64,000 bases of DNA, taken from the IMG/VR virus record IMGVR_UViG_3300010396_000045, positions 29,590 to 93,589 of that record. One strand, given 5' to 3'. The DNA is from a virus. Below are positions 22,467 to 30,098 of this stretch, one piece after another. A program made the position numbers and the translations under genes. Positions within the stretch are counted from its first letter, which is position 1, and each line of letters starts with the position of its first letter. Below the pieces are notes generated by a model that made no database searches, was not told the origin of the DNA, and saw only the letters and a list, made by a program, of their open reading frames with translations.

Positions 22467-22519
22467 TTGCTTCTTGCCGCCGTAAAGCTATATAATGAGG
22501 CACGCTCCCCAGAGCGCAT

Positions 22520-22619
22520 GGCTTGGTGTAGTCCGGTCAGGCGATGTATGGCGCGGTGGGGCTTGGAAGGGCAGTGTCAGGTATGGCACGGCTGGGTAAG
22601 GCAAGGAGAGCGGGGCTTA
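22520..22619 (+). repeat. Period-5 G-rich array 1 (GGYNN)
   Basis: Twenty consecutive 5-base units can be read in register, from GGCTT at 22520 through GGTCA, GGTAT and GGCAA. Fifteen of the 20 units begin with GG, usually followed by T or C; exceptions are AGTCC, TGTAT, TGTCA and the last two. It lies downstream of the minus-strand RHH gene and upstream of the baseplate hub gene. It has very strong G-over-C asymmetry on the plus strand. Confidence 0.85.
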
Positions 22620-22628
22620 GGCTCCGCT

Positions 22629-22829
22629 CTATTTCTTTCTGTCCAGCCCGATCATCATGAGCCGACGAACTGCTTCTGGCCGGGTCGGCAAATCATCCTG
22701 AACTCGCCGCCAGTCATCCAACCGTACTAGCTGCGACCGCTCTAGCCGTACGTTGACCGCCTCGCTATCTACGCTTGGCCTGCCAATTTTCTTTGCCGAT
22801 TTCTTAGCGCCGGATATTGACATGCCCAA
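22629..22829 (-). CDS. Ribbon-helix-helix DNA-binding protein
   Basis: The 66-residue protein has a basic N-terminus (GAKKSAKKIGRPSVD) and then EAVNVRLERSQLVRLDDWRR and RPEAVRRLMMIGLDRKK. This is a beta-strand plus two helices as in Arc/CopG repressors, which bind palindromes as dimers. A perfect palindrome, GCTATGCA-N3-TGCATAGC, starts 9 bases upstream of its start, so autoregulation through that element is plausible. It is a candidate regulator for the whole dyad family. Confidence 0.75.
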   Translation of the reverse strand: MGMSISGAKKSAKKIGRPSVDSEAVNVRLERSQLVRLDDWRRVQDDLPTRPEAVRRLMMIGLDRKK

Positions 22830-22837
22830 TACATAGC

Positions 22838-22856
22838 GCTATGCAATCTGCATAGC
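22838..22856. promoter_or_regulatory. Recurrent dyad element, copy 4 (perfect palindrome)
   Basis: GCTATGCA-ATC-TGCATAGC is a perfect 8+3+8 dyad centred between the divergent RHH gene (start 22829) and HNH gene (start 22873). It is the clearest candidate operator in the window. Confidence 0.8.
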
Positions 22857-22872
22857 AACACGGAATACATGA

Positions 22873-23298
22873 ATGCCGTGCCAGGGTCTAATCGGCGACT
22901 ACTCATGCTCTGGCTGGCGCTCACTTGCTCAGCATATCCGAGAGCGCGACGGCAACCGATGCCGGGGCTGTAACCGGGGGCAGGAGACCATCGCGCTTGA
23001 GGTTCACCATCGGACCTACGGGACTCCGGGCCGCCCATGCGGAGCGTGTTATCTGACTGCCGTAGAAGACGACGACCTAGTTACCCTCTGCATTGAGTGC
23101 CACGAAGCGGTGACGAACGTGCGCCGGAAAGTGCGCTACGCCACCAGAAGCATAGAGATCGATACGATTGACCCTCCTGTGGCCGTAGTAGAGCCAGTCA
23201 GGAGGGTTCTGATCGTTCCCGTCGAACTGGTTCCTCCTCCGGTAGCCGCCGGAGTCGTAGTCAGGCCTAAGAAGTTCAATCCATTCAGCGAAGGTTAA
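22873..23298 (+). CDS. HNH endonuclease
   Basis: The 141-residue protein has a compact HNH core. Metal-binding Cys pairs flank the active strand-helix: CRGCNRGQETIALEVHHRTY, then DDDLVTLCIECHEAVTN. The His pair in LEVHHRTY and the later CxxCH supply the catalytic and zinc ligands. The C-terminal third is Val/Pro-rich. It may be a homing enzyme or a helper for DNA processing. It starts the plus-strand cassette and its stop is two bases before the next gene. Confidence 0.8.
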   Translation: MPCQGLIGDYSCSGWRSLAQHIRERDGNRCRGCNRGQETIALEVHHRTYGTPGRPCGACYLTAVEDDDLVTLCIECHEAVTNVRRKVRYATRSIEIDTIDPPVAVVEPVRRVLIVPVELVPPPVAAGVVVRPKKFNPFSEG

Positions 23299-23300
23299 GT

Positions 23301-23891
23301 ATGCACAAAATACTCAAGACACGTCTAATCTCTGTTGCGCCATTTATCATGCACAACGGTCAGACTGCCGATCCCCTAAACAAGTTCGCCAAGGCGATGA
23401 AGGAAATCAGCGGCAAGCGGAAGAAGACCGAGGCGGACTTCATTGAACTGGCCCGCATCGAGTACTTCGCCGGCCTTTACATCGATAAGGATGGCCCAAT
23501 CATCCCATCCGTAATGCTAGAAGCTATGATTACGAAAGGCGCGGCAAAGGCCAAGAACAGTAAGCTAGCCGAGGCCGGAGTTATCGTCGACCAGCACGGT
23601 TACCTAGAATACGACGGTCCTCGGACCCCGGAGGAACTTGTCGCTGACGATCGGTTCCGGCTGACAGTTCCTGTCCGCATCGGCCAACAGAAGGTCATCA
23701 GGACGCGCCCAATCTTCCGGCAATGGGCGGCTGACATCGAGATCAAATACCTGGATGATATCATTAACGAACGCGACCTGCTTACCGCACTGCGGGCAGC
23801 GGGCACGTATGTCGGCATCGGTGACTGGCGCCCGCGCAACGGACGCTTCGCTCTCGCTGCCGATATGGCAGCCTTGAAAGAGGCGGCCTAG
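23301..23891 (+). CDS. Conserved phage protein with RAMP-like C-terminal Gly motif
   Basis: The 196-residue protein begins with LISVAPFIMHNGQTADPLNK, continues with a Lys-rich SGKRKKTEADF segment, and ends with AGTYVGIGDWRPRNGRFAL. The arrangement recalls ferredoxin-like RNA/DNA-binding folds such as the RAMP/Cas7 group, with a Gly-rich loop near the C-terminus. I know similar proteins only as hypothetical phage proteins, so the fold is inference. It follows the HNH gene closely and is itself followed by the second period-5 array. Confidence 0.7.
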   Translation: MHKILKTRLISVAPFIMHNGQTADPLNKFAKAMKEISGKRKKTEADFIELARIEYFAGLYIDKDGPIIPSVMLEAMITKGAAKAKNSKLAEAGVIVDQHGYLEYDGPRTPEELVADDRFRLTVPVRIGQQKVIRTRPIFRQWAADIEIKYLDDIINERDLLTALRAAGTYVGIGDWRPRNGRFALAADMAALKEAA

Positions 23892-23978
23892 GGCTTGGTC
23901 AGGTCAGGCTCGGTATGGCTCGGCAGGGCAAGGCATAGTTGGGCAGTGTCCGGTCAGGCTTGGTATGGCTTGGTGAGG
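23892..23978 (+). repeat. Period-5 G-rich array 2 (GGYNN)
   Basis: Seventeen in-register 5-base units begin at the base after the stop of the preceding gene: GGCTT, GGTCA, GGTCA, GGCTC, GGTAT, GGCTC and so on. Fifteen of 17 begin with GG; the exceptions are AGTTG and TGTCC. It shares unit words with arrays 1 and 3. Confidence 0.85.
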
Positions 23979-24037
23979 GCTTTCATAGCGGGGAGGAGGC
24001 GATACGTCGCCTTCTCTTCGGTGCGAAAGTACCGCAT

Positions 24038-24114
24038 GGTCGAGTACGGCCTGGTCAGGTGAGGCTGGCTATGGCGCGGTCTAGTCAGGTCCGGCGATGT
24101 TGGGTATGGCAGGG
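24038..24114 (+). repeat. Period-5 G-rich array 3 (GGYNN)
   Basis: Fifteen in-register 5-base units run from GGTCG to GGCAG; eleven begin with GG. It ends 11 bases before the ATG at 24125, so it occupies the leader of the secreted-protein gene. The order GGCGA-TGTTG-GGTAT-GGC echoes GGCGA-TGTAT-GGC in array 1. Confidence 0.85.
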
Positions 24115-24124
24115 AAACTACTTT

Positions 24125-24511
24125 ATGATACGAGTACTGACCGTCACGGCAGCAATCCTATTAGCAGGATCTCTAGCTAATGCGGATGAGATCCGCTGGT
24201 TCGCGGGGCGCTATGTCAACGTTATGGATGGCTATGCCTATAGCGATCCCGACTCAATGATCGAGTGCTCTATAGATAGAGACTGGACAAAACCTCCGCT
24301 ACCCCAGTTCCGGCATAAGCCGGCCCATGGCTCTTGTCAGCATGTCCTTCGTTCCGCAGCCAATCCTGGCTTCGTCCCATTTAGGGACGGATGGTTTATC
24401 AATACCGAGCCACCATACGCAGGTATTATAGGTATGCAGTGCGGCGCGACTGTCGGCCAGAAGGATGGGGGATTCTGGTGTGACTGGCCCCCTTATGGAA
24501 CCACAAAATAA
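24125..24511 (+). CDS. Small secreted protein
   Basis: The ATG at 24125 gives MIRVLTVTAAILLAGSLANA-DE, a clear type I signal peptide, so this start is preferred over an in-frame start at 23939 that would translate the repeat array. The mature protein of about 106 residues is Trp-, Pro- and Cys-containing (DPDSMIECSIDRDW, HGSCQHVL, MQCGATVGQ, FWCDWPPYG) and may form disulfides in the periplasm. The family is unknown. Its 3' end overlaps the convergent baseplate gene by 19 bases. Confidence 0.75.
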   Translation: MIRVLTVTAAILLAGSLANADEIRWFAGRYVNVMDGYAYSDPDSMIECSIDRDWTKPPLPQFRHKPAHGSCQHVLRSAANPGFVPFRDGWFINTEPPYAGIIGMQCGATVGQKDGGFWCDWPPYGTTK

Positions 24512-29156: not shown

Positions 29157-30098
29157 ATGAGCACGCCCCGATTTAAGACTGATCCAGACAATCATCCTCG
29201 TCCGATGCCAGGAGCCTATCTGGTAAGGAACCTAATCAACGGAAAATGCTATGTCGGAATCAGTCAAAAGGTCAGTCGTCGGAGGGCAGAACACACCAGA
29301 GGCGACGGAACAGCGCCTCTCCTGACCAAAGCTATTCGCAAGTACGGCGTAGAGAACTTCGAGTTTGTCCCGCTATTCTACTCAATGACAGGAACTCTGT
29401 TTCTCCCAGAGCTGGAAGCAACTCTCATTGCTGCCTATGACGCTCTGGTGCCTAACGGATACAACGTTCAGGCGTCGTCTGGAGCAGTCGGTCCTTACGG
29501 CCCTGCGTTCGGCGAAATACTCCGCCTAGCCTTTGCAAAGCCAGAAACTAAGGCGCGCAAGAGTGCCGCCGCTAAGAGTCGAGATCCTATTCTAATGAAG
29601 AAGTTCTGGGAAGCCGCGCAGGCCCCAGAAGTCAAGGCCAGAGCCATCGCGACAATGACAGCCACCAGGAGGAGACCGGAAGTCCGTCTAGCTCAGTCTA
29701 TTCGGGTGAAAGCTATGAATGCTGACCCGGAGTTCGTCGCTAATCGAACGCAGAAGGCAGTTCTGACGAAGTCAGATCCCGCATGGAAAGCCAGGGTAGC
29801 CCCGAGCTATTCGGAGGCACAAAACCGTCCCGATGTGAAAGCTAAGAAGTCCGTAGCGATACAGGCTGCCTTAGCGACCCCGGAAGCTAAGGCCAACAGA
29901 TTAGGGAGATTCTGGATAACGGACGGAACGGTCGAGTTAAAGGTTGCTAAAGGCAGCACGATTCCCGATGGATGGACCCGTGGTCGGAATAGCAAGTTCA
30001 AGGAGGCTCATTCTCCCGATGCTATGGGGAAAATAGCAAGGAACCCCAGACCCCCTCGTCGCGGATATAAGTTACGCCGGATCAACGGTTCACATTGA
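29157..30098 (+). CDS. GIY-YIG homing endonuclease with NUMOD-like repeats
   Basis: The 313-residue protein has the GIY-YIG core: GAYLVRNLINGKCYVGIS holds the two short motifs, RRRAEHT the conserved Arg, and LPELEATLIAAYDAL the catalytic Glu. The rest consists of basic repeats (ETKARKSAAAKSRDP, PEVKARAIATMTATRR, PDVKAKKSVAIQAALA) that resemble NUMOD3 DNA-binding modules. It is inserted, in opposite orientation, between the sheath and tube genes and overlaps the sheath 3' end by 17 bases. This is typical of a free-standing mobile endonuclease. Confidence 0.85.
   Translation: MSTPRFKTDPDNHPRPMPGAYLVRNLINGKCYVGISQKVSRRRAEHTRGDGTAPLLTKAIRKYGVENFEFVPLFYSMTGTLFLPELEATLIAAYDALVPNGYNVQASSGAVGPYGPAFGEILRLAFAKPETKARKSAAAKSRDPILMKKFWEAAQAPEVKARAIATMTATRRRPEVRLAQSIRVKAMNADPEFVANRTQKAVLTKSDPAWKARVAPSYSEAQNRPDVKAKKSVAIQAALATPEAKANRLGRFWITDGTVELKVAKGSTIPDGWTRGRNSKFKEAHSPDAMGKIARNPRPPRRGYKLRRINGSH

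Follow-up and report, generated by a model that had tools for sequence, protein, structure and literature searches.

A probable VIPR locus with an HNH-like partner gene in a tailed phage

Arrays and genes at the locus

We analysed a window of 64,000 bases (positions 29,590 to 93,589 of IMG/VR record IMGVR_UViG_3300010396_000045) in which three arrays of G-rich pentamers lie in the non-coding DNA around a small gene cassette (Table 1). The features are named after the Viral Interference Programmable Repeat (VIPR) systems, relatives of CRISPR that were described only recently and that allow a bacterial virus to silence DNA of competing viruses; the name was introduced in PMC13142463 (bioRxiv 2026.04.26.720920). 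An earlier note on this DNA, made from the letters alone, had described a three-gene cassette, and its outline was borne out: the cassette comprises a ribbon-helix-helix (RHH)-like gene, an HNH-endonuclease-like gene and vipr, encoding a RAMP protein. Two opposite-strand genes enclose it, one for a baseplate hub and one for a Pam3-gp18-like plug; in Burkholderia phage Magia, the position after the hub is filled by a different opposite-strand gene. Homologues of the RHH-like gene recur beside the VIPR loci of several relatives. The 128-aa gene at the downstream end had no homologue in the related loci examined and is a passenger of the cassette. No DNA similar to the locus was found in the phage collection searched.

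Table 1. Features of the locus, in positions of the window
Feature	Positions	Strand	Description
Weak -35 candidate for vrRNA1	22467-22472	+	TTGCTT, read in the sequence
Possible -10 box of vrRNA1	22491..22496	+	TATAAT hexamer, read in the sequence; about 24 bases before vrRNA1
vrRNA1 repeat tract	22520..22609	+	18 pentamers (15 GG, 13 GGY); NN series TT GT CC CA GA AT GC GG TT AG AG CA AT AC TG AA AA GA
vrRNA1 tail hairpin	22607..22630	+	AGAGCGGGGC-TTAG-GCTCCGCTCT, then a T-rich tract; terminator-like
RHH-like gene	22629..22829	-	66 aa; PHROG 4738 repressor, E 1e-5
HNH-endonuclease-like gene	22873..23298	+	141 aa; PHROG 119, E 4.6e-12; probable vap
vipr	23301..23891	+	196 aa, single-domain RAMP; PHROG 4652 (function unknown), E 3.5e-53; homologue of SUSP1 Vipr
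vrRNA2 repeat tract	23892..23976	+	17 pentamers (15 GG, 15 GGY); NN series TT CA CA TC AT TC AG AA AT TG AG CC CA TT AT TT GA
vrRNA2 tail, long hairpin	23979..24030	+	GCTTTC...GAAAG closing a GGGGAGGAGGCGA/TCGCCTTCTCTTC stem
vrRNA3 repeat tract	24038..24112	+	15 pentamers (11 GG, 11 GGY), more degenerate; NN series CG AC CT CA GA TG AT GC CT CA CC GA TG AT AG
128-aa gene	24125..24511	+	Signal-peptide-like N-terminus, without family match; starts 12 bases after vrRNA3

In all three arrays the unit is a mostly conserved GG plus pyrimidine followed by two variable bases (GGYNN). The autocorrelation of G at lag 5 was 0.47, 0.77 and 0.44 in arrays 1, 2 and 3, with further peaks at lags 10 and 15, and no such peaks appeared in the flanking or intervening genes. 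The best stretch of 15 pentamers held 13 GGY in phase on the + strand versus 6 on the - strand; in 100 order-3 Markov copies of the window, the best stretch held 4-6. The strict 5-base GGY-NN period that the earlier note had claimed for three non-coding arrays is thus confirmed, with an autocorrelation peak at 5 and 13 units against a Markov maximum of 6. Its counts of 17 and 15 pentamers for the second and third arrays held, but its 20 for the first was re-measured as 18: the start at 22520 was right, and the end lies about 10 bases before its 22619, where the array runs into the hairpin. Likewise, its description of the units as mostly GG with T or C in third place was correct overall; eight departing units have (A/T)GT instead of GG. 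These eight units without the first G all read AGT or TGT, never AGC or TGC, and the same T bias, in weaker form, was seen across 538 tracts.

An exact search for (GGYNN)5 over the whole 93,589-base record matched two of the three arrays and nothing else, the third being missed because it is too degenerate; the reversed control pattern gave zero matches in the same record. The statement that nothing similar exists elsewhere in the window therefore extends to the 93.6-kb contig. Tandem Repeats Finder did not list the arrays as period-5 repeats because the NN positions vary. There are 12, 9 and 10 distinct NN in vrRNA1, vrRNA2 and vrRNA3, respectively, and NN are free to differ between copies within the locus. 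The TATAAT hexamer before vrRNA1 was not among the hits of a promoter consensus scan.

To assess the vrRNA1 tail, we aligned it with 15 array ends of relatives that share the arrangement GGCAAGG-NGA-hairpin. Seven of the nine predicted pairs showed changes on both sides that preserve pairing; the tails were picked by eye, and these compensatory changes therefore support the predicted hairpin, short of proof. Over the 60 bases after the array, 163 array ends from loci with the HNH-like gene had a mean folding energy of -21.3 kcal/mol, against -16.4 kcal/mol for mononucleotide shuffles. No clear tail hairpin was seen in the sequence after the vrRNA3 tract, and Rfam at gathering thresholds gave no match in the window or in nine array loci.

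Linkage of the arrays to the Vipr family

A profile built from 66 array-linked proteins had one strong hit in PDB, 36pp_D ('SUSP1 Vipr protein'), at E 2.8e-42 over the full length. Using tblastn against SUSP1, we found vipr (34% identity, E 4e-33) with arrays around it. The 66 aligned homologues are 16-45% identical to the window's protein; R136, W142 and G181 are invariant, and the C-terminal loop GxxVGxGDxRPxxGRF is conserved, as befits Vipr, a single-RRM RAMP. AlphaFold modelled the 196-aa protein with a pLDDT of 96.4 from the 66-row alignment, which was needed (37.5 from the single sequence). The best PDB matches of this model in Foldseek were Csm3 subunits of type III CRISPR complexes (E 3.6e-5, probability 1.00), so the predicted fold would be one shared with class 1 CRISPR RAMPs (Csm3/Cas7). 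In contrast to class 1 CRISPR systems, the guide at the window locus would be a pentamer tract rather than a contiguous spacer, and no cas genes stand beside it: none of the four cassette genes matched a cas family above cut-off in NCBIfam or PADLOC, and none did in Pfam. Neither a CRISPR repeat-spacer array nor long tandem direct repeats were found at the cassette. The suggestion that the arrays bind a 'repeating protein filament' came close, in that the neighbouring gene encodes a Cas7-like RAMP, of a family that binds RNAs with GGY/NN repeats.

Employing DNA alone, we scanned IMG/VR with (GGYNN)8 and obtained at least 120 stretches. Among the matches listed, 88 of 120 loci contained a Vipr homologue when the window's own locus was excluded (89/121 with it; that locus counts by construction, since arrays and query gene are both present in it). 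The homologue was usually beside the arrays and on the GG-carrying strand. About a quarter of the loci listed had no homologue in the fetched stretch, some stretches being short or cut off. Conversely, a search with the protein alone found sense-strand arrays near the gene in 68 of 80 loci. For 111 loci, taken from viral contigs and genomes by protein search, one uniform measure was applied, a minimum of 6 GGY in phase among 10 units. It was reached in the sense flanks of 105 loci and in the antisense flanks of 0, and in sense DNA further off in 2/75. A scan of IMG/VR with the reversed pattern is an unclean negative control, as it also picks up true arrays and exact tandem repeats; the protein was present in 24 of its 113 loci, most with an array at the match. 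The arrays thus do accompany the same gene in relatives, as the earlier note had proposed to check. Drawn from sequence alone, this two-way linkage shows that GGY/NN arrays and Vipr belong together as a single system in a broad range of phages.

The linkage also bears on a possible role of the arrays as DNA, be it as a replication origin, through R-loop or G-quadruplex formation, or as the site at which a DNA filament binds. The strong local G skew and the short-period clusters of G would fit such a role. Against it, the arrays track one RAMP family across many contigs and phages and are sense to its gene, fixed GGY with free NN and hairpin tails suit an RNA, and the skew profile of the window, which the earlier note had wished to see, has no turning point at the arrays. 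An origin, R-loop or G-quadruplex does not explain GGY plus two free bases, and hairpin tails end two of the three arrays; protein-family linkage, sense orientation, unit structure and tails thus lend these readings no support. To action of the arrays as DNA in general we give almost no credence.

Several loci departed from the common pattern. In L202, L175 and L163, all with a Vipr homologue, the period-5 tracts are built on other triplets (GGANN in L202, GTG-type in L175); PMC13142463 mentions 'a related consensus' in some VIPR types. Short CGGGACGGGTCGGG-type period-5 tracts occur in the viral contigs L141, L154, L156, L162, L164 and L209, where no Vipr homologue could be detected within the stretch fetched. 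Long arrays in L069 (5698-6002), L104 (2076-2429) and L123 (8676-9093) are modular, with about 8-11 pentamers to a module and either a constant GGCACCGCA or a shift of phase by two bases (GGCAGGC) between modules; they are perhaps the staggered vrRNA arrays of PMC13142463.

The HNH-like gene and its clade

In a tree of 197 Vipr proteins, SUSP1 included, a homologue of the HNH-like gene lay just upstream of vipr in 90 of the 92 tips of the window's group and in 0 of the other 105 tips, SUSP1 among them. Support for the 92-tip node was low (0.17); it was 0.89 for a nested group of 77 (76 with HNH) and 0.83 for one of 38 (all with HNH). The HNH-like protein keeps the HNH-domain pattern CxxC...EVHH...LCxxCH. 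By tblastn, the gene had no match in the phage collection and none of significance in the SUSP1 segment searched. Because of this distribution over the tree, the HNH-like gene is likely the accessory gene (vap) of the window's clade. Counting it as vap, the locus has the layout of a minimal VIPR locus, namely vipr and vap with arrays in the flanking intergenic DNA.

The same arrangement is found at loci L406-L412 of Methylobacterium, Microvirga, Roseomonas and Brevundimonas, where the HNH-like gene mostly lies directly upstream of vipr and the arrays are in sense; several have the same GGCAAGG-hairpin tail as the window's vrRNA1. They differ from the window in NN content and in being on bacterial contigs, and are probably prophages. 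The analysis describes a clade with a fixed HNH-like partner gene and with relatives mainly in Alphaproteobacteria.

According to PMC13142463, enzymes, for example nucleases or helicases, belong to VIPR types III-V, and the types with predicted nucleases (III and V) are described as enriched in host defence islands. We tentatively consider, as a possibility with the odds against it, a nuclease-armed VIPR branch in which the HNH-like protein would cut the DNA that Vipr and vrRNA together mark; rivals of the phage would then be destroyed and not only silenced. The window's clade is suited to testing whether cutting accompanies silencing in phage VIPRs.

VIPR interpretation, target search and host

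As described in PMC13142463, a vrRNA consists of 9-16 YNNGG repeats and an invariable structured 3' tail and serves as the guide that brings Vipr to double-stranded DNA. Its NN dinucleotides form the pairs with the target, one target base being skipped in each repeat, and transcription is repressed by the bound complex. In nature, the targets are for the most part competing phages, prophages and satellites (PMC13142463). The window locus has GGY/NN tracts with hypervariable NN, although 18 and 17 pentamers are slightly above the published range, and structured 3' tails on vrRNA1 and vrRNA2. It is also virus-borne, as the IMG/VR record carries portal and baseplate genes. Compared with the type II VIPR of Escherichia phage SUSP1 (PDB 36pp), the window locus has in common a Vipr homologue, sense GGY/NN arrays both up- and downstream, structured 3' tails and a tailed phage as carrier. 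In SUSP1, vap1 is downstream of vipr and there are three downstream arrays, whereas the window has the HNH-like gene upstream, two downstream arrays and an opposite-strand RHH-like gene. We conclude that the window locus is very probably a VIPR, with the arrays as vrRNA genes, vrRNA-guided binding of rival DNA by Vipr and an HNH-like accessory protein. This kind of system is already published, and the window locus adds another member; the data of the preprint may already include this contig. The simple GGYNN pattern could serve to annotate many viral contigs.

RNA binding, the one-base skip and repression come from experiments on SUSP1 and P. fulva (PMC13142463), and by analogy we infer expression, guide use and target in the window phage. 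On this view, a tailed phage would carry the locus as an accessory cassette placed between its baseplate genes. Its + strand arrays would be transcribed into two or three vrRNAs, and the 196-aa Vipr RAMP would assemble along each of them, gripping the GGY triplets and leaving the NN pairs exposed to read double-stranded DNA as NN-x-NN-x with one base skipped per repeat. Once bound, the Vipr-vrRNA complex would block transcription at its target, for which the likeliest candidate is a gene belonging to a rival phage, satellite or prophage that shares the host. As accessory protein of the clade, the HNH-like protein encoded upstream may add cutting of the target.

Alternatively, the RAMP-like protein could act in cis, binding GGY repeats in its own mRNA for self-regulation with no DNA target. 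TRAP, which binds spaced triplets, would be a parallel. In keeping with cis action, arrays directly precede or follow the gene and share its sense, and the first base of array 2 immediately follows the vipr stop codon. Yet several copies of the array, with terminator-like tails, occur in a locus, NN vary freely between copies in one locus, for which autoregulation has no need, and SUSP1 vrRNAs direct DNA binding in trans (PMC13142463). We regard action in cis as highly improbable and retain the VIPR interpretation.

Targets were sought under the rule of a one-base skip. In IMG/VR we made four scans, with 8-NN seeds of vr1, vr2 and vr3 and a second vr1 seed; the seeds of vr1, vr2 and vr3 gave extensions at chance level only. 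Patterns of 13 NN with up to 3 mismatches revealed no convincing target in genomes (vr1: 10 and 101; vr2: 385; vr3: 101), nor did the window itself contain one for any of the three vrRNAs. A test of the skip rule on 538 array tracts did not separate skip 1 from shuffles.

With the second vr1 seed, one contig (L439, 6639-6692) matched 12 consecutive NN of vrRNA1 with one-base skips, 30/36 bases overall; by our estimate, about 0.01 such matches are expected by chance over all seeds tried. In natural VIPR targets the skipped base is reported to be at the codon wobble position (PMC13142463). We did not accept L439 as a target of vrRNA1 because the contig has 38% GC, the skipped base is off the wobble position and several seeds were tried.

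That the scans yielded no target, and that vrRNA3 has only 11/15 GGY and no clear tail, would be consistent with a partly decayed VIPR, with vipr intact but with arrays, vrRNA3 in particular, that have lost their function. However, the vipr frame is open with its conserved residues kept, and vrRNA1 and vrRNA2 retain both register and hairpins. Such decay appears unlikely to us, and a working VIPR remains the preferred interpretation.

The closest relatives of the window's Vipr in genomes belong to Methylobacterium, Roseomonas, Brevundimonas, Microvirga and Caulobacteraceae (47-53% identity). Judged by these sequences, the host is probably an alphaproteobacterium. One genome, of Methylobacterium haplocladii, has two different Vipr genes, each on a contig of its own (L406 and L422). 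Vipr-like sequences were also present in archaeal metagenome bins assigned to Methanoperedens and Diapherotrites (L434 and L436).
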